Positions 4,451 through 18,658 of a stretch of 64,000 nucleotides of DNA are shown here, in pieces; position 1 is the first letter of the stretch, and each line of letters begins with the position of its first letter. The DNA comes from Chryseobacterium binzhouense. GTDB taxonomy: Bacteria; Bacteroidota; Bacteroidia; Flavobacteriales; Weeksellaceae. The translations under genes were made by a program, and so were the position numbers. The notes under the pieces are model-generated. The model saw only the letters and a list, made by a program, of their open reading frames with translations. It had not been told where the DNA came from and did not search any database. The stretch lies in contig NZ_VKOG01000001.1 in assembly GCF_007474545.1 (NCBI RefSeq), positions 496,001 through 560,000 on the forward strand. Reading direction: 5' to 3'.

Positions 4451-4588
4451 CATAATTTTTGGGGAATTGTCCTCTGATTGTCTGTATGATAATTATCGTA
4501 AAAACCTATGAATTTGAAAATGATTTTTATGGAAGTGTATTAATATTATACTAATGGAAATTGTTATTAAAAGAGCCATGTTATTGTA

Positions 4589-4692
4589 GAATTTGTAATT
4601 TCTGCTCATCTTTATGTTTTAATAAAGATAGAAAATTTTAGAAAGTTTGTAAAATAAAAAGCCACACGAAGGGATTCGTGCGGCAGCGGAGG
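4589..4692. repeat. 104-bp direct repeat, left copy
   Basis: Positions 4589-4692 are identical to 6111-6214. Each copy ends in an imperfect palindrome (GCCACACGAA, 4-nt loop, TTCGTGCGGC; here 4661-4684) preceded by an A-rich stretch. Read on the minus strand this is a stem followed by TTTTTATTTT, i.e. a plausible intrinsic terminator for the minus-strand genes. Read on the plus strand it translates as ATRRDSCGSGGG followed by a stop. The two copies bracket the toxin-like pair at 4831-5901. Confidence 0.85.
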
Positions 4693-5148: not shown

Positions 5149-5901
5149 TTAATCTGAATATTTTAAAATTAACTTTTCCATTTCTTGATTTTCCAAAAAG
5201 GGTTGCTTATTCTCTTTGAAAAAATATTTAACATATTTGTAAGCACTGACTAATTCTTCTTCTCGGTATTTATTTTTGGTTTTGTAAATTTCTTCCCAAA
5301 CATTCCATTCCAACTCCCAAGGTTTTTCAGCAACCATTTTTCTATAGTTTTTTCTACCTAATTTTAATAAGTCATCGATATGAACATTTTCATGAAACCA
5401 TGCCATTTTAGGACAGTTTTTTCTTATCAGAAGTTTAATAGGACCACTCTCATATACCATAACTCTACCTTTTAATCCCGTAAGATACATGTTATGTGTT
5501 TCATCTATCCAAACTATTTCAAGTTTTAAGTTATGTTTTAACATTTTCAAATCAAGCTCACGAATGTATTTTTTTAACAGATTTGAAGATAAGACTTCAA
5601 ACTGACTTCCTCCAGGAAATAAATCAACTTGCCTCATGTCAAGTTCTGCAGCTTTAGTTAATTCGTCAATAGCTTCATCGGCTTGTCTGCGAGAAAGCTG
5701 TCCGTTTTCAACTAAATCATCAAGTTGTTTTTCCAGCTCGGCTGCATCTTCCGGTTTTTCTACCAGTTTTTTAGCACTTTTCCTCAACCCATTGTGAATT
5801 GCGACTGTAAGTTCACCCGATAAAGATAATAATTCCAGCCAAAATAGATATTCAGATAATGCTTTACCCCCGCTACCGCACGAATCCTTTCGTGTGGTCA
5901 T
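5149..5901 (-). CDS. Orphan polymorphic-toxin tail with zincin-like HExxH domain
   Basis: The 250-aa protein begins MTTRKDSCGSGGK, then has a helical charged linker (about 30-90) and a C-terminal domain. That domain holds MAWFHENVHIDDLL: HENVH at 170-174 is an HExxH zinc-peptidase motif, and Glu residues at 196-204 could supply the third ligand. This resembles the zincin-like metallopeptidase toxin (Tox-MPTase) group of polymorphic toxins. There is no signal peptide or delivery domain, so it looks like a displaced C-terminal cassette. The first codons form an imperfect palindrome (5875-5898) nearly identical to the hairpin in the flanking 104-bp repeats. An in-frame TAG lies 11 codons upstream. 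A candidate immunity gene follows 6 bp later. Confidence 0.6.
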   Translation of the reverse strand: MTTRKDSCGSGGKALSEYLFWLELLSLSGELTVAIHNGLRKSAKKLVEKPEDAAELEKQLDDLVENGQLSRRQADEAIDELTKAAELDMRQVDLFPGGSQFEVLSSNLLKKYIRELDLKMLKHNLKLEIVWIDETHNMYLTGLKGRVMVYESGPIKLLIRKNCPKMAWFHENVHIDDLLKLGRKNYRKMVAEKPWELEWNVWEEIYKTKNKYREEELVSAYKYVKYFFKENKQPFLENQEMEKLILKYSD

Positions 5902-6110
5902 CTTTAAATCTCCAATAAGGTTTTTGACCCTCTATGCTTCGAAAAACTAAATGTCTATGACTTGACATGATACACCATGTATTTCTAATCCTTTATTCTT
6001 TTGGCAAAATCTTAAACTTTCAAGAAAAATATCTTTGTATTCATTCTAACAAATACATCCAACCAGCCTACAACTGCAAAACTTATAAAATATAATCCTT
6101 CGGGATTGTG
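5902..6110. other. AT-rich gap without a supported gene
   Basis: About 210 bp lie between the toxin-like gene and the right 104-bp repeat. Only short frames are open. One plus-strand frame ends KYNPSGLWNL at the repeat boundary, but it is only about 35 codons with no good start. Together with the repeat and the transposase remnant it makes up the gene-poor stretch 5902-6453. Confidence 0.4.
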
Positions 6111-6214
6111 GAATTTGTAATTTCTGCTCATCTTTATGTTTTAATAAAGATAGAAAATTTTAGAAAGTTTGTAAAATAAAAAGCCACACGAAGGGATTCG
6201 TGCGGCAGCGGAGG
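6111..6214. repeat. 104-bp direct repeat, right copy
   Basis: This stretch is identical over 104 bp to 4589-4692, with the hairpin at 6183-6206. Read on the plus strand the hairpin translates as ATRRDSCGSGG and then a stop. Immediately after the repeat the sequence switches to the 3' end of a transposase gene, so the repeat edge coincides with a recombination junction. Confidence 0.85.
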
Positions 6215-6453: not shown

Positions 6454-6753
6454 CTATTTAACAGGCCATCGTCCTGCTTCGTATTCTCCCATATAATATT
6501 CTTCAGACCTGTTTGTACCAAAGTCTATTATATTTCCTTTTTCATATTCTATTAAAAAAGGGGCATTACCAACTAAAGTATTGTCTTTATCATCTCTTGA
6601 TTCATAATATTTCTTTGTATTATAAAAGAAAACAATCCCGTATGGTTTTTTTATAGATAAATCGTGTAAAATAGCTAATTCTATTTTTTCTTCACCTACT
6701 AATTTTTTTAAATAGTCATTAGCAATTTCTAAAATTAATTCTTCTGTTAACAT
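6454..6753 (-). CDS. Imm35-like (YrhB-domain) immunity protein
   Basis: This 99-aa soluble protein contains FFYNTKKYYESRDDKD, LVGNAPFLIEYEKGNI and a C-terminal EEYYMGEYE. Those fit the Imm35/YrhB-domain pattern (an aromatic YNSKKY strand, then GNAP followed by a hydrophobic strand and a terminal YI..YE). In polymorphic toxin loci this family is a predicted immunity component. It begins one base after the stop of the 723-aa toxin-like gene upstream, which strongly suggests co-expression as the cognate antidote. The family assignment is from pattern recognition; the partner assignment is inferred from adjacency. Confidence 0.7.
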   Translation of the reverse strand: MLTEELILEIANDYLKKLVGEEKIELAILHDLSIKKPYGIVFFYNTKKYYESRDDKDNTLVGNAPFLIEYEKGNIIDFGTNRSEEYYMGEYEAGRWPVK

Positions 6754-6754
6754 A

Positions 6755-8926
6755 TTAATTTGTTTTTAAATATTTAAATGATTTGTATTCTGATAAAAGA
6801 TTCATTTCTTGCGAATGAGATTGCCCATCTTTAAACAGCAATTTTCCATCTTTTTTAATAATGTTTAAAACGTGAGAAAGTTTTCCTTGACCTCTCTGAC
6901 ATAATAATATTCCTCTTTCTCCTTCTTTCATTACTTTGGACAATGTTGAAAAATTATATGAAAGAAAAGATTTAGCATATACTTTTTCTAAAACAAAATA
7001 ATTTTGTGCTTTAGAAACAGGAGCTTTACTAATTTTTCCCGTTTTCAAAAATTCATCTAAAACTTTTACCACTTCAACACAATTTCTATCAGAAATTTGA
7101 ACAATTTTTCCATTAACAATATGATGGTTAAAATATATCATTGTCTTATCTAGATACTTCATTGCATTTTTAGCAGTAATATTAGCTTTTTGTAGTGCTT
7201 TATAACCTTCTTCAAATTCTTCCAGAGTCATTTTAATTCCCGTAGAAATATCTTCAGCCATTCCAGCTTTCTTATTCTTCAAAAACCAATCTGCAATTTT
7301 TTTCCAAACATCATCTACAAAATCTTGTAGCTTTTGTCCGCCTTTGGTAAGCATTTCCAGCAGTTCTTGTAAGGCTTTGCTTACGGTTTGGTAGGCTTCT
7401 GCAGATTTTATCCTGACAAATTTAGCACTTTGAAAAATTGTTTTGCCCACTTCTTTATTTATTTTGGCTAAAATCTCGCCTACTTTTCCTACTTCGCCTA
7501 TTTTGGCAAGATCTGCAATGGGGATAAAGAATGTCCCAATGAAAGAAATGGTAAACCCACCAACGTAGTGGATTCGCACCCAATTTATATCATCTGCGTT
7601 TTTGCTTTTCAGGTATTTTACCATTTTTGTCATTCCTGCAGAGATGGCATTTTCAAGGTTTTCCCAAAGCGTACCTTCGGTATACATTTGCCTAAAGTTG
7701 TCAATCATTTCCAAAACCTGTTGGAAATCTTTAGTAATGTAAAAGGGAGCTTCCAGCAGCATCCCAAGAAACTTGAAAATAGAAGAGACAAAATCTACCA
7801 AGCCGTTCCAGATTCCGCAGATGAGAGCGACTTTTTCGGCAATATTTTCTATTTGTTTTTGCATTTGAGGATCTTCCAGTGTGATAAAGATTTCTTCAAA
7901 TTTATGTTTTACATAGTTGTTGTATTGTCCTACAAAAGATTCTATTACAGTTATCTGGTTCAAAATAATGTCATCCAACATCTGTGGCGTGAAATCAGCA
8001 AGGTTAAAACCTTTTTTATCGGTGAAAAGATCTTTTAGAAGTTTGGTTTTTTCCGTAGAAATGCTCAGATTTTCTATCAGATTTTCTTTTTTGAACAGAT
8101 AGTTTTCATTTTCGGTATCCCAAAATTCATCGGATATTTTTAGAAAATCTATGCCACTTCCAAGTTTATTCATCACCCATCCTAATGCTTTTGAAGGAGC
8201 AGATGTGGCGAGAAGTACATATTTTAATCCTGTAAAAAAACTAGTTGAAATACTTTTATCTTCAATATAACCTTGGAGTAAAAGCTCTTCAATTATGTCT
8301 TTGTTTGCCGGTTCTAAATATTTTTGAATGGTCTCTATGATATCTCCCTCAAAGAAAGTGCTGTATAATCTTCCTGTAGTGGTATCTACATAAGTTTGTC
8401 TTACTTTTTCAGAGATTCTGCCATAAAGCTTTTGTTTACTTAGTGTGTCTTCATCAGCTTCTAAAAAAAGGATGATTTCGTCATGAGCGGGCTTTATTAC
8501 CTCATAGCATTCTTTTACTTTATTTCCGTCTGTAGACACAAAAATCAAAAGTTTAAAGATAATCTGTTCATCTGCATCTTTAATTCCGTTTTCGTTTTTG
8601 TCAAAATAGAAATCGTGTACATTAAACTTGAAACCTTTCCGTATGACAAGATCAACATCTTCTATTATTGTTATATTTCCTTTTGAGGTATCGTTGCCGT
8701 CAATAAAATATTTATTAAAAATCTCATCAGAAGTCTGATTATGAAACTTAAAAGCTGCTAAAGGACTTACGTTTTTCATGCCTCTAATATTTCTACCTAT
8801 CTGAAAAGATTTACTAGCAATTTCCTGCAACGGATTTTTATTTCCTTCAAAGCCTTTGTTTACTTCCTCAAAAGACAATATTTTATATCCGGATAAATCT
8901 CCGAATTCGTAATCAAATTTTTCCAT
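6755..8926 (-). CDS. Large protein with papain-fold (Tox-PL-like) C-terminal toxin domain
   Basis: The 723-aa protein has no signal peptide. Residues 1-250 are an unrecognised alpha/beta region that includes a calcium-binding-like DKNENGIKDADEQ segment. The middle (about 340-560) is amphipathic and helical, with hydrophobic stretches (FTISFIGTFFIPIADLAKIG near 455) that could enter a membrane. The last 110 residues carry DRNCVEVVKVL (Cys616), GKLSHVLNII (His685) and LLFKDGQSH (Asp700), the Cys-His-Asp pattern of papain-fold toxins (Tox-PL group, deamidase or protease). The Imm35-like gene follows directly. The start at 8924-8926 lies 14 bp inside the 3' end of the nucleotidyltransferase gene. 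The toxin call rests on the C-terminus and the immunity neighbour; the delivery route is unknown. Confidence 0.65.
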   Translation of the reverse strand: MEKFDYEFGDLSGYKILSFEEVNKGFEGNKNPLQEIASKSFQIGRNIRGMKNVSPLAAFKFHNQTSDEIFNKYFIDGNDTSKGNITIIEDVDLVIRKGFKFNVHDFYFDKNENGIKDADEQIIFKLLIFVSTDGNKVKECYEVIKPAHDEIILFLEADEDTLSKQKLYGRISEKVRQTYVDTTTGRLYSTFFEGDIIETIQKYLEPANKDIIEELLLQGYIEDKSISTSFFTGLKYVLLATSAPSKALGWVMNKLGSGIDFLKISDEFWDTENENYLFKKENLIENLSISTEKTKLLKDLFTDKKGFNLADFTPQMLDDIILNQITVIESFVGQYNNYVKHKFEEIFITLEDPQMQKQIENIAEKVALICGIWNGLVDFVSSIFKFLGMLLEAPFYITKDFQQVLEMIDNFRQMYTEGTLWENLENAISAGMTKMVKYLKSKNADDINWVRIHYVGGFTISFIGTFFIPIADLAKIGEVGKVGEILAKINKEVGKTIFQSAKFVRIKSAEAYQTVSKALQELLEMLTKGGQKLQDFVDDVWKKIADWFLKNKKAGMAEDISTGIKMTLEEFEEGYKALQKANITAKNAMKYLDKTMIYFNHHIVNGKIVQISDRNCVEVVKVLDEFLKTGKISKAPVSKAQNYFVLEKVYAKSFLSYNFSTLSKVMKEGERGILLCQRGQGKLSHVLNIIKKDGKLLFKDGQSHSQEMNLLSEYKSFKYLKTN

Positions 8927-9352: not shown

Positions 9353-12300
9353 TTAAATTAAGAATTTGCTCAACGGAACTTTATCCAAGTATTCTGCGGG
9401 TGGAATTACTTGTCCGTTTTTGTCTAGAATCCTCTCGCCTCCGTAATTGCCGTATTCTGGAGAATGTATTTTTAGAGTTGAAGTATCAAAATCTACAGAG
9501 AATTTGAAGACATCGTGTCCGCCTAATGAATCGTGTCCACCTGGTTTTGTGAATGTAAAGTTCTTTATTTTGCTTATATTAATTTTAAAAGCAATACCTC
9601 TTTTCATTGAAAAGGTTTCCAATCCTTCAATCTGAGAAAGCTCGTCTGATAATGCTTTATATATTACAGCTAAAGAATCCGATGGTTGCCATGTCGCATC
9701 TCTGTCAACAGTGATTTCGTTTCCTAAGCATCTATATTTTCTTGGGAAAGCGTTTACTGCATCTACTTCTTCTATAGTAGTAAAATTATCCATCTCATCA
9801 AAACTAATCTCAATCCACTTATCTCCAGACTGCCCAATTTGATTATTATTCAATTCAAAATTAGTTGTGCACATTTCACCCAACTGATCGTCAAATTTCA
9901 CTCCTGGTTCGCAATGGCAAGGCAAAGCCTTTTCTACTTTTAAGCCGATAGAATCTGCCTGAAGAATGGTAAGCGAAGTCGGGATTTTCTCTCTCCATGG
10001 TTCACCCTGTTTTTTGCCTACTGCAGCACGCATTTCGTCTACAATAGATAAGAATAACGGATCGTCGATCACCGGTACTTCACCGCCGCTCCAGATTTGT
10101 CCGGTTGCCATAAAGTGTCTTACGGCTTCTTCAAAACCAGGTCTTACGGTAACTATTACTCTCGCCATACCAGATTGCATAAACGCTCTGAAGGTAGGAT
10201 CGTTATCATCAAACTGATACATATCTGACCATTTGTTTCTGTCTCCCCAATAAAAAGGGTAGAAGTAATAGCTCATAATGTCCCATTCAAAAGCCTGTTC
10301 CATGAATTTCACGAACGCTGCGTACTGATCTAAGGAAGAATCTACTTTTATATCGGTGTTTAGGAAGGTTTCAGCTCCGGAAGTAAACCCGTTATTGTGA
10401 TATTTTCTTTTACCGAAAGTAAGTTCTGTAAAAGGGTTCTGACTGATCATATAAGAAATACAATTCTTTCTTAAAATGGTATTCTCAATCTTTCTGTAGA
10501 AGCCTGGGTTTGAACCTTTAATCTGTACACCTAAAGCTTTTGCTTCTGCTAAAGCTTGGTTGTATTTGTCTAATTCAATCTCGTAGGCTTCAATGATTTT
10601 ATTGAAGGTTTTTTGATACCAAGTATCTTTCGCATCTTGAGTTAGCTGGCATTGAATACTTATATTTACACTTGATACTAAAAGACCTAATTGCGAATAT
10701 GAAATAGGTATTTTTCCTATAAATGAATTGATTGGGGTGTATACATTCCCAACTAAGGTATTTCCAACTAAAACTTTAGCATCAGACCAAATAGGATTAT
10801 GAGAATCAAAACGATCATCTGAATCTCCGGTAACCGCAAGTGCAGAAACGGTCTTATACCCCATAGGAATTTCTATATCTGTAGATTCTGCAGCGAGTTC
10901 CCAAGGATTACCTTTCGGCTCTGGTGCTTTGTAACTAAAGCTTTTTCCAACATAAATTATATCTTCTGGCTTTTTGTCTATCTCAACATTATATTTACTG
11001 ATCCAGTATTTCAAAACGGTATCACCTAATAAACTGTCTGATATTGATATAAAATTTTCCATTTTATTAATCAATGATTCTCTCGGATCTACGGGTTTAA
11101 CCAATTTTTCCGATTCATCAATCATTTTGATTCCTAAATTGTGAAGCTTGGCAGGTTCAGGAATCATAAACTCAAACATCATGCGTTTACCATAATTGTA
11201 GATTTGGTTTTTTACCACCTTATCTACCCATCGGTAAACTCCGACAACGTGATTGCTTCCTTTCGTATTGTCGAAACCATGTTTATTGTTTTCTTCGTAT
11301 TCTTCAAGAATTTTATCAATACGTTCTTCTTTTACTTTGGTAACGATTCTGTCTAAAGCTCTTGCTGTAATGTCTTTGGCTTCTGTTACCGCCTGTCGGT
11401 TACTTTCTTCTTTTGAATTGTGAGTAGCGTAACTTGCGTTGGCGGTAATTCCAAATTTGTTATCTCCCATTCCCCAATTTGCATAAGCTCCGGCTTGCGC
11501 AGAAAAGTCTTTCGATTCCTGTAAAATTTTAGAAATCTCGCTTTGCATTTCATGCCTTTCGGTCGTGGTGGTGTCTGTCAGTTTTTCTTTTTCAGACTCT
11601 GAAGATTTTGTGGTTTGAGATTCGCTTCTTTTTAATCTTCTGGTTGCACGTTCTTTGTATTCGCGCGCCATGATATTTTCAATATGAGCAACGTCTCCTT
11701 CTACATAGCAATAGGTGCTTTGCTCAACCTTTAGATAGTCTGCAACCCCGATATTTTTCATTCCGAATCCGGAAGGGATAAAAGTTTCAATAGTCGGATC
11801 TACAGGCGGGTTTTCTGTTTCACCCGGATTTCCTTTTGGCGGATTTTCGGGAGGGAGGCATCCGTCTGCGCCACGGAAATGATACTGTTTGGTCATTCTG
11901 TCTAAATCATTAGGATCAACAAACAGAGTAACATTAAAATCGTACACAGTGCCATTGGCTGATGTAAACTTCCCTTCTACAACAAACTGCTCAACTACTG
12001 TAGTTTGAGAAACTAAAATTTTAGGTATATCAAATAAAAGATATGATCCTCCGCCTAAAGAAGAAAAACTTGTTGAGGAAATTTCGGTATTGTTTACTGT
12101 TGCTTTATATTGTGCGGAAATCAAATCTATATGATCGTTAAATGCCAATATAAGACTCCATTCTGTTGCGCTTCTGGCAAATGTTTTAATACTGAAAGGA
12201 ATATATCCTGATGAGGATGAATTGGCAGTAACCGGAATTACAACACCTCCTACTTTGGCAGAAACCTGGTGATTGATCACCGTATTGTTCAGTATAGTCT

Positions 12301-13438
12301 GCTGTAAAACCTGATTATTCTGATGGATGTTATCATGAAGCTCCTGAAATGTACTAATTCCTGATAAAGCTTGCGCAACTGTAGAAGTTCCGAATACTCT
12401 GCATAAAGCATTTTGCTCTTGCTGACCGAGCGCTCTTCCTATTTCAGAGGGATCAATTTGCGGAGTTTCATAATTAAATTCAAATTCAGGGATTTCAGTA
12501 TCAGACACGGTAATTTCCATGATTTCTTCCTTGATGCGGTGAAGTTCCATTTCAAGCTCGCTGTTGGCATAGAACTTTTCCGGATCTGCTACGCTCAGCT
12601 GTGTAAGATAATTGATTCTGTTTTCCAGAATCTGTTTTCTTCTGTCGGCTTCAGTCGCTTCCTTTTGTATTTCTCTCAAAAGAGGTTTTATGTTCCGCTG
12701 ATAATCGTTATAGGCTGACTTTTGAGCTTCATCATATTGTGTTCTGTATTTTTTTTCCAGCTTAGATATAGAATCGGCGAGTTTTTGAGTTTCCTTCAGT
12801 TGCTGTGTAGCTTCAGCAAATTTCATTGCAGTGCTGTTGAAGGTGGTTCTCTGAGAGTAATTTGTGGAAATTCCTGTAGAATTTGTGGAAGGAATTGTAA
12901 ATAATTCTTTTGGTAAAACAACTTTTGCTTTCCTTAGGTCTTCAAATGCTTCTTCTGTGCCGTCATAATTTTCAAGAATATGATTCACATGAAGAAACTG
13001 CATCAATGTTTCTTTTGCATAAAAATCTTTTTGTGTAACTACCTGATAAATTAAATTATCCCAAATCAGTTTCATATCGGCAATATAAGGGAACGTATTT
13101 GAAGCTTTGTAATCATTGATTTTAGTATCAAATTCAGTTTTTGATACTGTTGATTTATTTCTTGCAACCCATACAGCCAGATCGTGAAAAGCGGGATTGA
13201 TTGATATTAAATTATCTTCTGAATACATCGTGATAAGCTGCTGCTCATCTATTCTTCTGCAGACAGCCTGTAATGTTTTGTCTGTTGAGATGTGCTCATC
13301 GAAAACTCCTTTATGAATTTCTTTTCTGAATACAAATCTTCTTTTTTTGTTTTTAGGATCGGATAATTCCGGGTTTCTCATCGCTGCAAACCTGAAAAGA
13401 GTTTGTGAAGAATTGTTTGTGTTTAAATCTGTTGACAT
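9353..13438 (-). CDS. Unrecognised 1361-aa island protein with coiled coil
   Basis: I do not recognise the family with certainty. There is no signal peptide. Visible parts in order are: an N-terminal globular region (1-200); a long charged coiled coil (about 210-320); a beta-rich segment (about 390-525); a Pro/Gly-rich hinge near 545-570; a Ser/Thr/Glu-rich helical stretch (about 600-700, ATRRLKRSESQ); a conserved-looking helix containing YNYGKRMMFEFMIPEPA; and a C-terminal region with YYFYPFYWGDRNKWSDMY and ARVIVTVRPGFEEAVRHF. It lies between the fibre-like gene and the nucleotidyltransferase-toxin-immunity genes and has its own promoter with the 15-bp island box. A structural or carrier role in toxin delivery is an inference. 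Confidence 0.6.
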   Translation of the reverse strand: MSTDLNTNNSSQTLFRFAAMRNPELSDPKNKKRRFVFRKEIHKGVFDEHISTDKTLQAVCRRIDEQQLITMYSEDNLISINPAFHDLAVWVARNKSTVSKTEFDTKINDYKASNTFPYIADMKLIWDNLIYQVVTQKDFYAKETLMQFLHVNHILENYDGTEEAFEDLRKAKVVLPKELFTIPSTNSTGISTNYSQRTTFNSTAMKFAEATQQLKETQKLADSISKLEKKYRTQYDEAQKSAYNDYQRNIKPLLREIQKEATEADRRKQILENRINYLTQLSVADPEKFYANSELEMELHRIKEEIMEITVSDTEIPEFEFNYETPQIDPSEIGRALGQQEQNALCRVFGTSTVAQALSGISTFQELHDNIHQNNQVLQQTILNNTVINHQVSAKVGGVVIPVTANSSSSGYIPFSIKTFARSATEWSLILAFNDHIDLISAQYKATVNNTEISSTSFSSLGGGSYLLFDIPKILVSQTTVVEQFVVEGKFTSANGTVYDFNVTLFVDPNDLDRMTKQYHFRGADGCLPPENPPKGNPGETENPPVDPTIETFIPSGFGMKNIGVADYLKVEQSTYCYVEGDVAHIENIMAREYKERATRRLKRSESQTTKSSESEKEKLTDTTTTERHEMQSEISKILQESKDFSAQAGAYANWGMGDNKFGITANASYATHNSKEESNRQAVTEAKDITARALDRIVTKVKEERIDKILEEYEENNKHGFDNTKGSNHVVGVYRWVDKVVKNQIYNYGKRMMFEFMIPEPAKLHNLGIKMIDESEKLVKPVDPRESLINKMENFISISDSLLGDTVLKYWISKYNVEIDKKPEDIIYVGKSFSYKAPEPKGNPWELAAESTDIEIPMGYKTVSALAVTGDSDDRFDSHNPIWSDAKVLVGNTLVGNVYTPINSFIGKIPISYSQLGLLVSSVNISIQCQLTQDAKDTWYQKTFNKIIEAYEIELDKYNQALAEAKALGVQIKGSNPGFYRKIENTILRKNCISYMISQNPFTELTFGKRKYHNNGFTSGAETFLNTDIKVDSSLDQYAAFVKFMEQAFEWDIMSYYFYPFYWGDRNKWSDMYQFDDNDPTFRAFMQSGMARVIVTVRPGFEEAVRHFMATGQIWSGGEVPVIDDPLFLSIVDEMRAAVGKKQGEPWREKIPTSLTILQADSIGLKVEKALPCHCEPGVKFDDQLGEMCTTNFELNNNQIGQSGDKWIEISFDEMDNFTTIEEVDAVNAFPRKYRCLGNEITVDRDATWQPSDSLAVIYKALSDELSQIEGLETFSMKRGIAFKINISKIKNFTFTKPGGHDSLGGHDVFKFSVDFDTSTLKIHSPEYGNYGGERILDKNGQVIPPAEYLDKVPLSKFLI

Positions 13439-13586: not shown

Positions 13587-13620
13587 CAATAGTAGGGGTG
13601 CGAAGCGACAAAACTTGACG
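13587..13620 (-). promoter_or_regulatory. Island promoter: -7 TACTATTG plus 15-bp box (1361-aa gene)
   Basis: On the minus strand CGTCAAGTTTTGTCG (13606-13620) is followed after 11 bp by TACTATTG (13587-13594). The same box with the same 11-bp spacing to TACTTTTG occurs at 17419-17452 and 18595-18628. The promoter would give a leader of about 145 nt before the ATG at 13438. The box may be a regulator site or an extended -33 region. Confidence 0.7.
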
Positions 13621-13646
13621 CATTATAACTCCGAATTAAATTTTTT

Positions 13647-16600
13647 TTAATTTAAAAAAGCTGCAGAATGATAAGAGCCTTTTTTAATTAATCTCCTTTC
13701 AGCAGTAATGTAATATTCTGTGGTTTCTCCTGTACGTATTGTATTAATAGAATGATCTTCTCTTCTTACATTAATCTCAAAAGGAGCGAGATTGGTTACA
13801 GTTATCTGTCTTTCAGGGATGAGTTCGGCTTCAAGTTCCAGATATTCTTTTGTATATTCTTCTGTAATAATTACAGTGTTTATTTTACACGAAGCACTTA
13901 TAGGATAGTCGGGATTGATGAATTCTGCGGTGATTTGTGCCATGCTTTCATTTACGAAATCAGAAGTTGCATAACCTGCTGCAGCGTGATTGCCCCATCC
14001 GAAAGCAGAGTTCCAGTTGTTGATTTGGGCAGTATTAACTCCGTTGACAGGATGGCTTATTGGTATTGCATCAGTTATCCCATAACCGGATAAAGTTGTA
14101 GGTTTAGAAGTTATTGACGAAAAAGTGTGGGTGTGGCTTGCTAATGAATAATTTAAAGGATTAAAATTACCACTATGATAAATCTCATTCCAGCTTCCAA
14201 ATGTTGAATTTTCCTCAGTTACAAAATATAACTTATTATTTCTAGCACCTAAAGAAAAACCATAAGTTTGATTAGATGCATTATATGGTGTGAAATTAAC
14301 TACTGCACTATTAAGATTATTAGGTCTGTTTGATGCAGTTGCCCAAGCAGAAGCATTTCTAACACCAAAGGCATCTGTTCCAATTAAATTCTGTGTTGGT
14401 AACCCATTTCCTTTAATTTTAAAAATACTTTCAGTATCAAAATTACCGGTATGTAATATTTCTCTCCATGGATTTCTTATACCTGAATTATTATAACTTC
14501 CTAAAAACCATTTTTCTTGAGCTGCATTATGAAATAATGAAAAGTCTCTATTATAGGAAGAGTTGTTATTACCTAAACCTGATGAAAATTCAATAGCAAA
14601 ACCTGATGTATTTGGGAAATTAGTAAATGTTCCTGATGTTAATCTACCTATACCCCATTGAGAACCAAAGTTCTTACTTGCATCAACATTAAGATTATTA
14701 ATATCAGCAATTGCACCTATTTCATCTAATGACCATGATGCATTTCCTGAACCATTTACAGATTTGGACGTATTACCAATAGTAATATTTCTTGAAGTAC
14801 CCCAGTTAGCTGTAGTAATATTTCCAGTACCATCAAATAAAGTACCATTAATAAGTCTTTGATTTGTTAATTTTATGGCACTATTAGCACTTTCCGTTCC
14901 AGTTAAATTATTTAAGTATGTACCATGAAGGTTTAAAGGACTTCCCTCAGATGTGATTAGATTAATTATAGGTGGATTAGTTTTAATTGCTTCTCTATTT
15001 ACATTAAGTAATCCTCTTATGCTTATTTCAGTCCAGTTACCCCAATTAGTTGCTAAGTCACCTATATAAATATGTCTTTCAGCATTATTATCAGTTCCAA
15101 TTGAAACATATCTTACTCCAACATTGTTTGGATTTTTTCCAATAAAAGTTACTGAATTACTTCCAGCAAAATTTATTGATGATCCATAAAATGTATAAAA
15201 CTGACAAACAAATGTACCAACCAATGCACCATAAGTGAAAACATCAATATAAAATACACCCATCACATTAATATTTGGTAATGTAATATCAATAATTCCT
15301 GTACCTTGTATTGTTCTTGATGCTAAATTATGTATAAGATTTCCTGTAGTTAATCTACCAGCAGTTTCAAAATTTCTTGTATTTAGATTTACATTTGATG
15401 TTGCACCTGTATAAGGAATAAATTTAGTATCTGATTCAGTTTTAGTATAATAATTAGTAGCTATACCATACGATGCTATTTTACTATTAAACCATTCTTT
15501 CGTAATTAATGTTTTATTGGTTGTATCTGCATCAATAGTATTGACTGTAGATTGTGGCATTAAAAATTCACCACCTGATATAATATTTTGAAATGATTTA
15601 GTTGGTTCAAAACCACTTCCAAATATGTTGATAGTAGAGTAAACTAATTGAGCATTAAACTTATGTCCAGTACCTGTACCTACATTAGTTATACTATGTG
15701 TATGTCTAAAATAACCGTTAGGTAAAGTTTCAGAAAATCTTATTGTATTTCCGTCAACTATTTTAACTTGAATAATATCTCCATCATTAATACCAGTAAT
15801 AGGTGAACTACCTTGTGTGAATTTTAAATTTACATAAGCATTAGTTGCACCAAATCCATGTGCAGGTAAATTAATTGTTTTATTGATTAAATCTATATCA
15901 GTTGAATCAAAATTCTTAAAATGATTAAGATTTTCTTTAAATGTATAATTTGAACTTTGTCCAAATACATTTACATTATTAGCTTGGTTATATCTATTTA
16001 CACCACCACCAAATGAATTTACAAATAGACCAGTATTTAAGTGACCTGCATTTGCACCTAAATGATTTACATAACCACTAGCATTAAATGCACCTGCATT
16101 ATAACCTAAATTATTTGAGTAAACTCCTAAATTAGTTCTTCCTGCAAGAAATCCTAAATTATTTGAATTAGCACCCGTATTAAATTGTCCGGCATATAAT
16201 CCTAAATTATTAACCCAATTTGCAGAATTATACATTCCTGAAAATTGTCCTAAATTAAGGACTGATAATCCTGAATTAAATTGTCCGGCAGACCTTCCAA
16301 TGTTAATTGTTTCTACACCTGTTGAAGAAGTTCCTGCAAGAAAACCAATATTTATATTTGGGTACGTTGTCGATTGAAATGAACTACCATTCCAATAGTG
16401 GGTTTGGTATGAAAATATAGTTTCGTTTGAATTATTTTTTATATAATTTAAAAATCTACCTACATTAGCTACCTCAATAGTATCAGGATTTAATCTTAAA
16501 CCTTTTGAGATTGTAGTATCTGTTCCATTATCAATAATATTAGAATTACCTATTACGTTTGATCCTGTAAATTTTGGAATTGTGTTTATTGTACCTGATA

Positions 16601-16922
16601 TACTACTAATCAAAATATACTCAGAACCGCTCCATCTGTATTGAGAATTATCGTTGGTGGTGATATAAATTTTGCTTTTTTCTCCGGGATTGGGTAAACT
16701 TTCCAAAGAATTAAATTCTAAAACATCATCCACATAACTTGGGAGTTGAGAAGACGGGATTTTACCATCAATGAGATCTGCTTTCTTACTTAGCTTTTGG
16801 TCTGTACCTTGAGGAAACTGCCTGTTTGCGTTCCAGTAAGCGTCCAGTCCGTTCCAGAACGTATTCGTGTCCGGAATGTTGTCTGGATCGAAATCGAAAT
16901 TAAGTTCTTCATTTTCTGCCAT
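13647..16922 (-). CDS. Phage-tail-fibre-like protein with 16-residue repeats
   Basis: The 1091-aa protein has no signal peptide. The N-terminal 100 residues (FWNGLDAYWNANRQFPQGTD, KADLIDGKIPSSQLPSYVDD) resemble the virion-attachment part of Bacteroidota phage tail fibres. Residues 190-325 are about nine 16-residue repeats with consensus NNLGxxAGxxNxGxxx. Later come YYTKTESDTKFIPYTGATSN, a long Asn/Thr/Gly-rich shaft with several HTGNF/YHSGNFN segments typical of fibres, and TTLSGYGITDAIP and WGNHAAAGYAT motifs near the end. This suggests a trimeric beta-structured receptor-binding fibre. No capsid, sheath or baseplate gene is nearby, so the fibre probably belongs to a non-phage device or adhesin. 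The leader resembles that of the 1361-aa gene. Confidence 0.65.
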   Translation of the reverse strand: MAENEELNFDFDPDNIPDTNTFWNGLDAYWNANRQFPQGTDQKLSKKADLIDGKIPSSQLPSYVDDVLEFNSLESLPNPGEKSKIYITTNDNSQYRWSGSEYILISSISGTINTIPKFTGSNVIGNSNIIDNGTDTTISKGLRLNPDTIEVANVGRFLNYIKNNSNETIFSYQTHYWNGSSFQSTTYPNINIGFLAGTSSTGVETINIGRSAGQFNSGLSVLNLGQFSGMYNSANWVNNLGLYAGQFNTGANSNNLGFLAGRTNLGVYSNNLGYNAGAFNASGYVNHLGANAGHLNTGLFVNSFGGGVNRYNQANNVNVFGQSSNYTFKENLNHFKNFDSTDIDLINKTINLPAHGFGATNAYVNLKFTQGSSPITGINDGDIIQVKIVDGNTIRFSETLPNGYFRHTHSITNVGTGTGHKFNAQLVYSTINIFGSGFEPTKSFQNIISGGEFLMPQSTVNTIDADTTNKTLITKEWFNSKIASYGIATNYYTKTESDTKFIPYTGATSNVNLNTRNFETAGRLTTGNLIHNLASRTIQGTGIIDITLPNINVMGVFYIDVFTYGALVGTFVCQFYTFYGSSINFAGSNSVTFIGKNPNNVGVRYVSIGTDNNAERHIYIGDLATNWGNWTEISIRGLLNVNREAIKTNPPIINLITSEGSPLNLHGTYLNNLTGTESANSAIKLTNQRLINGTLFDGTGNITTANWGTSRNITIGNTSKSVNGSGNASWSLDEIGAIADINNLNVDASKNFGSQWGIGRLTSGTFTNFPNTSGFAIEFSSGLGNNNSSYNRDFSLFHNAAQEKWFLGSYNNSGIRNPWREILHTGNFDTESIFKIKGNGLPTQNLIGTDAFGVRNASAWATASNRPNNLNSAVVNFTPYNASNQTYGFSLGARNNKLYFVTEENSTFGSWNEIYHSGNFNPLNYSLASHTHTFSSITSKPTTLSGYGITDAIPISHPVNGVNTAQINNWNSAFGWGNHAAAGYATSDFVNESMAQITAEFINPDYPISASCKINTVIITEEYTKEYLELEAELIPERQITVTNLAPFEINVRREDHSINTIRTGETTEYYITAERRLIKKGSYHSAAFLN
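15948..16355 (-). repeat. In-gene tandem 48-bp / 16-residue repeats of the fibre
   Basis: Residues 190-325 of the fibre-like protein consist of about nine consecutive units of exactly 16 residues, e.g. NNLGLYAGQFNTGANS, NNLGFLAGRTNLGVYS and NNLGYNAGAFNASGYV. The regular period and the Asn-Leu-Gly / Ala-Gly positions predict a repetitive beta-roll or beta-helix shaft, similar in principle to trimeric adhesin head repeats. Confidence 0.8.
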
Positions 16923-16939
16923 TTTTTATTATTTTTGTT

Positions 16940-17040
16940 AAGGTTTTTAAGATTAAAATTTTTGAAGTTTCTTTTTAGTAGAAAGCTTCATATTTTAGCC
17001 TTTATTTTTTAAGGTGGTGTCCGGCAAAGGATATCCACCT
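16940..17040 (-). repeat. Paralogous 5' leader with hairpin, upstream of the fibre gene
   Basis: This is the second copy of the leader described for 13441-13552, with the stem AAGGTGG/CCACCTT near 17010-17042. Unlike the other copy it has no exact 15-bp island box upstream; only a weak TAGACG-like remnant is seen near 17082-17087. Confidence 0.5.
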
Positions 17041-17180
17041 TTATTTTTAATGAGCAAAATCATTGTAAAATCGTTTAGGATTAGACGTATTTATTTCTGC
17101 CCGGCATTTATAAGGATGCTGAGTTTTAATAAATATTCGAAAAATTTAGCTGTAATTATTTAATTATGAATCAGGCTGGA

Positions 17181-17348
17181 TTAATCGTCATCTTCAAGAA
17201 TATCATTTTCAAAATCCTCTTTGAAAAAACTTTCAATCTCGCTCAGATAATTTTCATAATCCGGTTCTTCATTTTCAATCTCGTTCCAGGTAATAGTATA
17301 GGTAGTATCTTGTATCGACACTTCAGAATTGTAATTATTGTTTTCCAT
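17181..17348 (-). CDS. Small acidic protein, 55 aa
   Basis: An open frame from ATG 17346-17348 to TAA 17181-17183 encodes 55 residues starting MENNNYNSEVSIQDTTYTIT and ending FENDILEDDD. It is strongly acidic (many Glu/Asp, ending in three Asp), with aromatic residues in the first half (YTITWNEIE), and has no signal peptide. I do not recognise it. It is supported as a real gene by its own promoter at 17419-17452 carrying the shared 15-bp island box, about 70 bp upstream, and by its position between the patatin gene and the fibre-like gene. It might be a small chaperone, regulator or anti-toxin; this is speculation. Confidence 0.6.
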   Translation of the reverse strand: MENNNYNSEVSIQDTTYTITWNEIENEEPDYENYLSEIESFFKEDFENDILEDDD

Positions 17349-17418
17349 ATTTGATAAGTTTTTTTGAAAATATTTTTTCGTCAGTTTAATAGATTGTTTG
17401 TGTTTAAACTGTTGGTTT

Positions 17419-17452
17419 CAAAAGTAAAATGGCAATACGACAAAACTTGACG
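17419..17452 (-). promoter_or_regulatory. Island promoter: -7 TACTTTTG plus 15-bp box (55-aa gene)
   Basis: On the minus strand CGTCAAGTTTTGTCG (17438-17452) is followed after exactly 11 bp by TACTTTTG (17419-17426), matching TAnnTTTG. It lies about 70 bp upstream of the 55-aa gene and downstream of the patatin stop. Read-through would also reach the fibre gene. Confidence 0.75.
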
Positions 17453-17535
17453 TGTTATAATTTATTTGTAGAAAAATTTTAGATTCTCATGTATAAGTCT
17501 TTTGCCTTATTTAAGTGTATTATAAGCAAAAAAGA

Positions 17536-18573
17536 TTATATTTTGTTTTTAATCAGTTTTTGTACAATTTGATTTAAGGTTTCTTTATGATCATCTATAT
17601 AGCTCAATCCTGCCTGTACAAGACTTTCTATATTTGATCTCCTTACATTATCCATAGCAGGTGAAGCGTTCTTCAACGAAGGATTTAGTCGGTAATAATT
17701 TTTTTGGTTTCTTAATCCTAATGTCTGAAACATTTGTGTAAGCTGATAATCTACCGTTTCAGCGTTCGCAGACATCAGAATGTCAATGATAGGGTTTACC
17801 CAGCCAATTTTTCCGGCTTTCTCTAGTTTTTTAAATGAATAGGATTTTGCTTCAATTCCAGTTCCTATTGAAACAATAATCATGTCTTTTACGGTCGGAT
17901 AATTAGCCTTTTGATGATTTTTCAGAAATTCTGCAAAAGGAATTTTTCTTGCTTCAGCATAAGCACACAAAGCAGGATTATTGGCAAACATTCCGCCGTC
18001 AATGAGACTGAAAATTTGTCCGTACATTGATTTGATCTGTACTGGCGTGAAGTAAGTAGGAGCTGCTGAAGTAGCCCTGCAAACATCTTTTACATAAAAA
18101 TTATCAGTATTTACCCTTGCTTTCCAGGAATTGAAAAGTTTGGCTCTCCGGTTTTCAATATCGTAACTTGTAATTAAGCAGGGCTTTATTAATTCCTTTA
18201 GTTCCAGATTTCCAAAAAAATCATTAAGGTTTTTTTCTAAAGCTTCCTGAGAAATTTTTTCGTTTAAAAGACCAAAAGGATTTACCAGTTTTTCCCAAAA
18301 GGAAACCTGAAATATGTCGCCGCCTTTTTCGGAGTAAAGTTCCAATCCTTTCTGGATGGAATATTTCGCTTTTCTATGTTCATCAGGACAAAGAATAATG
18401 GAGGCAATCAGTGCTCCGGTACTGCTTCCTGCAACAAGATCAAAGTAATCACCGAGTTTTGCGTCTGGTTTGTCGTATATCTGAAGCTGCTCTTCGATAT
18501 AACGCAGAATGATGCACGTTATAATTCCCCGAATGCCGCCGCCGTCTAATGAAAGTAATGTTGTCTTTTTCAT
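17536..18573 (-). CDS. Patatin-like phospholipase
   Basis: The 345-aa protein starts MKKTTLLSLDGGGIRGIITC, so the ATG at 18571-18573 is preferred over a TTG 24 bp upstream. The oxyanion-hole loop is DGGGIRG, the nucleophile elbow is LVAGSSTGALIA (GxSxG), and the catalytic Asp is in SLIDGGMFANNP, giving a complete Ser-Asp dyad. The family hydrolyses acyl chains from membrane lipids. There is no signal peptide, so it would act in the cytosol, on the inner membrane face, or after delivery. Its promoter has the same 15-bp box as two island genes downstream, linking it to the toxin/fibre island. A defence effector role is possible, but no cyclic-nucleotide synthase is present. Confidence 0.88.
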   Translation of the reverse strand: MKKTTLLSLDGGGIRGIITCIILRYIEEQLQIYDKPDAKLGDYFDLVAGSSTGALIASIILCPDEHRKAKYSIQKGLELYSEKGGDIFQVSFWEKLVNPFGLLNEKISQEALEKNLNDFFGNLELKELIKPCLITSYDIENRRAKLFNSWKARVNTDNFYVKDVCRATSAAPTYFTPVQIKSMYGQIFSLIDGGMFANNPALCAYAEARKIPFAEFLKNHQKANYPTVKDMIIVSIGTGIEAKSYSFKKLEKAGKIGWVNPIIDILMSANAETVDYQLTQMFQTLGLRNQKNYYRLNPSLKNASPAMDNVRRSNIESLVQAGLSYIDDHKETLNQIVQKLIKNKI

Positions 18574-18594
18574 TTTTTCTACTTTTTGGTAAAG

Positions 18595-18628
18595 CAAAAG
18601 TAGGAGCGTGAAGCGACAAAACTTGACG
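18595..18628 (-). promoter_or_regulatory. Island promoter: -7 TACTTTTG plus 15-bp box (patatin gene)
   Basis: CGTCAAGTTTTGTCG at 18614-18628 (minus) is followed after 11 bp by TACTTTTG at 18595-18602. The -7 element ends 21 bp before the patatin ATG, so the leader is short. Box and spacing are the same as at 13587-13620 and 17419-17452. Confidence 0.75.
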
Positions 18629-18658
18629 TGTTTAAAATAATTTTGAAAAATAAAAAGA

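Follow-up and report, generated by a model that had tools for sequence, protein, structure and literature searches.

Three promoters within 5 kb of one another in the genome of Chryseobacterium binzhouense carry the same short box at the same distance from a promoter-like element, which raises the question of what reads it. They lie in a stretch of 64,000 nucleotides (contig NZ_VKOG01000001.1, positions 496,001 to 560,000), hereafter the window. The 15-mer CGTCAAGTTTTGTCG occurs in the window exactly three times, always on the minus strand (13606-13620, 17438-17452 and 18614-18628), upstream of genes for a 1361-amino-acid (aa) protein, a 55-aa protein and a patatin-like phospholipase, and 11 bp beyond it lies TACTATTG in the first case and TACTTTTG in the other two (Table 1). 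The original prediction, that one box recurs at three promoters with the same spacing and orientation, is thus borne out; it had also proposed that the box is read by a dedicated regulator or sigma factor. We conclude that a DriD-like regulator of the WYL family very probably uses the box as its operator; the gene for this protein, elsewhere in the same genome, carries the box in its own promoter.

The dyad and its distance from the -7 element

With up to three mismatches allowed, the 15-mer has six matches in the window, compared with a mean of 1.63 and a maximum of 5 in 100 dinucleotide-preserving shuffles. Aligning the sites of the genome, and then 378 sites from 80 related loci, reveals a 17-bp symmetric dyad, RCGWCA-N5-TGWCGY; the predicted 15-mer is present, but as only one variant of this degenerate element. 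The C, G and C of the left arm and the G, C and G of the right arm are conserved at 99-100%, in a scan that allowed at most one mismatch and so favours conservation, and the W positions mirror each other. When dyad, spacing and -7 element are sought together, at no more than one mismatch, the window holds only these three places in 64 kb, and 20 mononucleotide shuffles of the window yield 0.05 per shuffle.

The distance from the dyad to the -7 element is fixed at exactly 10 bp. Among 752 oriented dyads (each dyad being counted in both orientations), 346 have an exact TANNTTTR at this offset, and no other offset between 0 and 29 has more than 11. The 80 loci used for alignment were picked by their patatin gene and not by spacing, and most of the 10-bp spacer varies while the dyad and the -7 element stay conserved. 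TAnnTTTG is the flavobacterial primary-sigma -7 box, found at -12 to -5 in Flavobacterium psychrophilum (PMC9723704). If the element here occupies the same positions, the dyad lies at about -39 to -23, over the -33 region. A TTG 17-22 bp before the -7 element is found in 0 of 135 box promoters, in which the dyad fills that interval by definition, while among 249 other -7 candidates TTG is commonest at 19 and 21 bp (about 6% each), with 5% at 34 bp. We infer that the dyad stands in for the -33 element. A shorter pattern, TTGTCG-N11-TAnnTTTG with two mismatches, gave no signal alone (526 forward matches in this genome versus 873 reversed), and the left half-site is therefore needed.

Co-occurrence of the box with a WYL regulator

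The genome to which the window belongs (3.6 Mb in 16 contigs) contains ten places within three mismatches of the wider pattern, compared with one for the reversed control, and 40 genomes of the genus contain 626 sites, between 4 and 25 each, compared with two for the reversed pattern. The three sites of the window are real, therefore, but are not the whole set. In this genome the sites precede the patatin, 55-aa and 1361-aa genes, genes for an M15 peptidase and the WYL protein, two RHS operons, a C5-methylase operon and a gene for a 224-aa protein of no known function. The tenth (G000:C11:252653-252689, where G000 is the window's genome) is a degenerate RHS-leader copy whose left half-site is disrupted (CTTTAA); behind it we see no gene, RHS or other, on that strand. 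Were the box a general promoter variant, it should appear at many housekeeping promoters genome-wide; the scans for box, spacing and -7 element find instead a restricted and mostly non-housekeeping set of targets, RHS and polymorphic-toxin operons among them.

Among relatives of the patatin gene in Chryseobacterium (89-95% identity over the best segment; 80 of 111 loci kept), the box stands upstream at the same spacing in 80 of 80 loci (15-mer at no more than three mismatches). The patatin gene is thus not an island gene, and the description of the three sites as island promoters is only partly right, seven further sites lying elsewhere in the genome. The 80 loci contain 369 sites at no more than two mismatches, and the reversed control gives 0. 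Besides patatin, the boxed genes encode the M15 peptidase (79 loci), a small acidic protein (62), a fibre-like family (39), the WYL regulator (23) and a family that we take to be DUF2589-like (15), among others.

Among the boxed genes that were run against profiles or read, the WYL protein is the only one recognised as a transcription regulator. Its gene in the window's genome (G000:C1:358734-359651) encodes 306 aa and has the box in its own promoter. The protein carries a WYL domain (PF13280, E 2.4e-14) and, behind it, a WCX domain (PF25583, E 4.1e-09), each scoring above its cut-off. The N terminus has no Pfam helix-turn-helix match; its predicted structure comprises helices at residues 5-19, 24-32 and 47-61 and strands at 64-67 and 74-79, with a predicted local distance difference test (pLDDT) score mostly of 70-90, in a whole-protein model that is poor (mean pLDDT 47.2, from 21 close sequences). 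A recognition-helix motif, RTxQRD, is found in 22 of 22 aligned WYL sequences, with and without the box. PafBC and DriD chains are among the PDB matches of the protein, and the WYL and WCX region aligns over its length with DriD chains (8tp8, E 2.6e-4, by profile). Directly upstream of the gene (L137:2834-5647, on G000:C1) lie Macro-domain, Sir2, ADP-ribosylglycohydrolase and KptA genes, an NAD/ADP-ribose neighbourhood.

The dyad recurs in the promoters of related WYL genes. Taking as orthologues those proteins with at least 59% identity, 28 of 29 orthologous genes in 120 genomes of the family have it in their own promoter (at no more than three substitutions). Twelve regions around more distant WYL genes (32-39% identity) were also inspected; most of their genomes had been chosen for holding a box, which favours the result. 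The box stands directly before the WYL gene in five (L284, L285, L290, L294 and L302; at most one mismatch), at the head of the apparent operon in two (L288 and L289) and about 6 kb upstream in one (L301).

Across the same 120 genomes, 28 of the 29 with an orthologue have at least one box and 24 have at least four; of the 91 without, 19 have one or two boxes and none has three. Within a single genus (g7), the box counts are 9, 5, 10 and 12 in four genomes with an orthologue and 0 or 1 in each of the ten lacking one (exact p 0.001). Of 246 genomes sampled from the order, a set that overlaps with the family genomes, 36/36 with an orthologue and 8/210 without have any box, and the one member of the genus, among 32, that lacks an orthologue (G314) has no box and no patatin gene either. 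Furthermore, promoters of RHS partners carry the box (at no more than two mismatches) in 7 of 9 cases with an orthologue versus 4 of 16 without (Fisher p 0.017), counting duplicate loci of one gene once, omitting one gene without a locatable start and keeping one with 488 bp upstream.

The proposal of a dedicated regulator is therefore supported by the fixed-spacing dyad, by the restricted and mostly non-housekeeping targets and by co-occurrence with one WYL regulator. The best overall explanation, which we hold with good confidence, is a WYL activator of the DriD, SiwR and PafBC type acting on the dyad and controlling an antibacterial and lysis regulon. A dimer of the WYL protein would bind RCGWCA-N5-TGWCGY over the -33 region, 10 bp before the primary-sigma -7 element, and would thereby enable initiation by the housekeeping polymerase where a -33 TTG is lacking; the regulon would comprise a plausible lysis pair of M15 peptidase and patatin, fibre-like and toxin genes, RHS/T9SS operons (T9SS, type IX secretion system) and, in some strains, a contractile tail. 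That the protein activates rather than represses is probable, and that the regulon serves as weapons and lysis is rather likely. On DNA damage or single-stranded DNA (ssDNA) as the signal our opinion is evenly divided.

The boxed genes and their surroundings

Features of the window are collected in Table 1. The open reading frame of the patatin gene begins with a TTG (18597) that overlaps the -7 element, and translation is therefore more likely to start from the ATG at 18573. The patatin protein scores 159.8 bits against the NCBIfam CBASS phospholipase family, below the cut-off of 200. The M15 peptidase is endolysin-like, with matches to phage endolysin families (E 3.5e-30), and neither it nor the patatin protein has an obvious signal peptide at its start (by eye); from their sequences the two make a plausible lysis pair.

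Table 1. Predicted operators, -7 elements and genes in the window (position 1 is the first nucleotide of the 64-kb stretch)
Feature	Position	Strand	Evidence or remark
Predicted dyad operator of patatin gene, includes 15-mer 18614-18628	18613..18629	-	Kept before patatin in 80/80 Chryseobacterium loci
-7 element TACTTTTG of patatin gene	18595..18602	-	Sequence scan
Predicted dyad operator of 55-aa gene	17437..17453	-	Sequence scan
-7 element TACTTTTG of 55-aa gene	17419..17426	-	Sequence scan
Predicted dyad operator of 1361-aa gene	13605..13621	-	Sequence scan
-7 element TACTATTG of 1361-aa gene	13587..13594	-	One mismatch from TAnnTTTG
Patatin-like phospholipase gene (ATG 18573)	17536..18573	-	PF01734, E 3.4e-26
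55-aa acidic protein, no assigned function	17181..17348	-	Boxed relatives in 62/80 loci
1091-aa fibre-like protein, behind 55-aa gene	13647..16922	-	No own box seen; fibre reading partly by eye
1361-aa protein, head of toxin gene run	9353..13438	-	Relatives in 55/80 patatin loci (tblastn of 1217-aa relative)
723-aa toxin-like protein, behind 1361-aa gene	6755..8926	-	Gln_amidase weak at C terminus, E 0.049, below cut-off
Immunity-like protein	6454..6753	-	Imm35, 26.1 bits, just below cut-off of 27.5
Predicted metallopeptidase toxin	5149..5901	-	Tox-MPTase4, E 1e-08, above cut-off

The 1361-aa protein has no Pfam, PHROG or NCBIfam match, a model of its residues 1-1200 (mean pLDDT 55.8) has no Foldseek match at E no greater than 0.001, and phmmer gave one match, at E 0.4. 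The 1091-aa protein has no Pfam match at 0.1; its PHROG matches (residues 32-113) are named peptidase, head decoration and minor tail protein. By eye, the N terminus of the 723-aa protein resembles that of a boxed relative of 799 aa, which ends in a C39 peptidase. The metallopeptidase toxin gene lies between two direct repeats of 110 bp (99% identity; window 4583-4692 and 6105-6214), which makes the toxin cassette look as if recombination had exchanged it.

To see which genes stand behind the box in other strains, 60 box places from five other genomes were fetched with 4.5 kb of downstream sequence where the contig allowed, and families were assigned by Pfam for ten of the genes and by eye for the others. 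The boxed genes encode relatives, 1241-1358 aa long, of the large protein, RHS partners that carry a T9SS tail, spike-like beta-helix proteins, M15 peptidases, WYL proteins, a 230-233-aa family, a C39-peptidase toxin-like protein and transglutaminase-like and HNH proteins. Outside the family, boxes precede a repeated 195-197-aa protein (L289:7334-7921; also L291, with three copies, one of them cut) and, by eye, ATPase-like proteins of 650-669 aa (L290:408-2360 and L292:5206-7215); the regulon there may be of another kind. One genome carries a second, diverged cassette (L296:1632-11806, on G145:C25) with its own WYL gene (67% identity), patatin gene (77%) and relatives of 1353 aa and 725 aa.

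On three IMG/VR contigs the boxed cassette has a contractile tail operon as its neighbour, with sheath, tube-like, tape measure, baseplate hub and fibre-like genes and with an endolysin gene beside it. PHROGs were run on the 16 genes called in L335 and L339, the rest being assigned by eye. No head genes were recognised in these contigs, two of which were covered whole and one from position 5160 on, although the best PHROG of the 144-aa tube-like protein is named major head protein and the second-best tail protein. A dyad with one mismatch in its -7 element opens the tail side of the tail operon. Within the genus, only 2 of the 80 loci have a sheath gene in the 8 kb upstream of patatin.

A umuC-like polymerase gene lies near the M15 gene and is divergently transcribed in all 61 loci where both could be placed. 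On one tail contig umuC follows the fibre genes, which places the tail operon between M15 and umuC. The M15 gene of the window's genome stands beside umuC far from the patatin cluster (L140:5560-7525, on G000:C1 near 106 kb), and this genome may have lost, or may never have had, a tail operon between the two. A perfect box also occurs in a 54-kb phage-like IMG/VR contig (L334:13613-13647 and L338:7866-7900), where the gene behind it is small (78 or 83 aa) and converges on a gene for a 179-aa protein, with Rha and KilA-N genes nearby. Such a phage may use the WYL regulator of its host as an induction signal.

Alternative explanations and known systems

Several observations weigh against regulation of the boxed genes by the WYL protein. 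The phylogenetic profile of the patatin gene nearly equals that of the WYL gene, so that co-occurrence alone cannot separate a regulator from the cassette with which it travels; the two genes lie within 20 kb of one another in 26 of 29 genomes (not in the window's genome, and on different contigs in G042 and G115). Nor are the genomes in our co-occurrence counts independent of one another. Genome G043 has no orthologue (best WYL match 34% identity), yet its M15, patatin and large-protein genes are boxed at one or two mismatches. In G219, which is not a member of the family, three boxes occur and the WYL genes are all distant ones. One of the distant WYL proteins may take the role in each of these two genomes. 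Conversely, G150 has an orthologue and no box within one mismatch, its cassette sites carrying one to three mismatches. Its orthologue is the most diverged one, and site and regulator have possibly co-evolved. At this locus (L295, G150:C1:704500-724000) the right arm of three cassette sites ends in CAY rather than CGY, and the site before the WYL gene ends in CGT. The orthologue of G042 lacks a box within 200 bp, and no box is found near the distant WYL gene in 4 of the 12 regions (L292, L299, L300 and L303), despite the RTxQRD motif. The motif FGLDR or FALDR (FGLER in two sequences) has one arginine fewer than the FRLxR of PafB and DriD, and the ligand may therefore differ from ssDNA. Finally, the enrichment of a -33 TTG in promoters without the box is weak, and its absence from box promoters arises partly by construction. 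The dyad in the regulator's own promoter, the boxes at distant WYL genes and the contrast between RHS-partner promoters separate regulator from cassette better than the profile does.

These observations bear unequally on the alternatives. If another regulator carried by the cassette bound the dyad, the WYL gene would be merely a target, as the near-equal profiles and the boxes of G043 would allow; some boxed genes lack an identity, and this analysis covered the boxed genes rather than comparing regulators genome-wide. We nonetheless think this very unlikely, given that no other boxed gene that was run or read is recognised as a regulator, that distant genomes holding one or two boxes often have one at a WYL gene, and that a known WYL activator has the same operator. 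The WYL protein might instead repress, in the style of BrxR and CapW, until a signal lifts it off the -33 region. Those WYL repressors control defence genes and bind inverted repeats (PMC9122601), so that they resemble the present case as WYL regulators of conflict genes, and a protein on the dyad would cover the -33 region. The repeats bound by BrxR, however, are found immediately downstream of the predicted promoter rather than at a constant position over -33. Repression would not demand an exact 10-bp spacing at hundreds of promoters, and DriD, which uses the same operator at a constant distance from its -10 element, activates. Repression is thus unlikely in our view.

Fixed, promoter-like spacing is also what a dedicated sigma factor reading box and spacing as -35 and -10 would produce, and this was the other half of the original prediction. 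That half is not supported, since the downstream element is the primary-sigma -7 box, with TAnnTTTG conserved at the sites rather than a -10 that departs from the primary-sigma consensus, and the upstream element is a symmetric dyad; the motifs described for F. psychrophilum differ as well, the extracytoplasmic-function type having CGT at -10 and the sigma-54 type elements at -24/-12 (PMC9723704). We regard a sigma factor as highly improbable. We are more sceptical still of a general or duplicated promoter without a regulator of its own. Some RHS leaders are indeed duplicates (three places in the window's genome share the sequence around the box), and one box in another genome precedes a gene that by eye resembles purB; the 40 genomes, however, hold only 4-25 sites each, dyad and -7 element are kept while most of the spacer is variable, and the box is nearly absent from genomes without a WYL orthologue.

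Regulation by the DriD-like WYL protein would assign an operator and a likely regulator to a genus-wide regulon; to our knowledge, few regulons are known in this phylum. It would connect antibacterial weapons with WYL sensors, whose known roles are in DNA repair and phage defence, and it predicts a place in one arsenal for the 1361-aa family, the 224-233-aa family and the small acidic protein, genes otherwise of no known function. The box pattern, furthermore, finds new toxin operons through their promoter. A bolder possibility, which we advance tentatively, is a LexA-independent counterpart of SOS-controlled bacteriocin production: in Chryseobacterium and its relatives the DriD-like protein would sense ssDNA or a related nucleic-acid signal and fire a scattered regulon of toxins, fibres, RHS effectors, a contractile tailocin and a lysis pair, so that the damaged cell would die releasing its weapons. 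The family of the regulator is known; its use in a scattered weapon regulon in this phylum, with an operator shared with DriD, was not found in the open-access literature searched, where by title no Bacteroidetes WYL regulon and no Chryseobacterium WYL, tailocin or weapon regulon with this operator appeared.

The tail operons invite comparison with the pyocins. Much as in R-type tailocins, contractile tail genes without recognised head genes lie beside an endolysin gene in three IMG/VR contigs; the difference is that tail genes near patatin are so rare in the genus. Among WYL proteins, SiwR of Mycobacterium smegmatis is a homodimeric activator whose binding site, an imperfect palindrome, lies between -35 and -10; the -26 region is required (PMC10693628). 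Its palindrome occupies the same interval as the dyad here, but it serves two adjacent DinB-like genes, whereas the present regulon is scattered, with up to 25 sites per genome. The mycobacterial RecA-independent motif tTGTCRgtg-8 nt-TAnnnT (PMC5656591) is that of PafBC, which is activated by ssDNA (PMC11804915). TTGTCR and the TA of the -10 element are 11 nt apart in both systems, and both have WYL and WCX domains; PafBC, however, is a heterodimer with a non-palindromic motif and DNA-repair targets, whereas here we find a full dyad and a single gene.

The closest likeness in operator is to DriD of Caulobacter, a homodimeric WYL activator that responds to DNA damage independently of SOS, binds ssDNA and recognises ATACGAC(X)7GTCGTAT over -35 at a constant distance from -10 (PMC12340889, a preprint). 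The corresponding sequence here is AYACGWC-N7-GWCGY, likewise over -35 and at a constant distance from -10. The two differ in their targets, those named for DriD being in DNA metabolism and division as opposed to toxin, fibre and lysis-like genes here, and the present protein belongs to Bacteroidetes, with another sigma consensus and one WYL arginine changed. An operator common to three phyla makes the mechanism directly testable and, if the reading is true, an operator that Caulobacter DriD shares, and mycobacterial PafBC too as regards half-site and spacing, would be among the most deeply conserved of any DNA-damage regulator.

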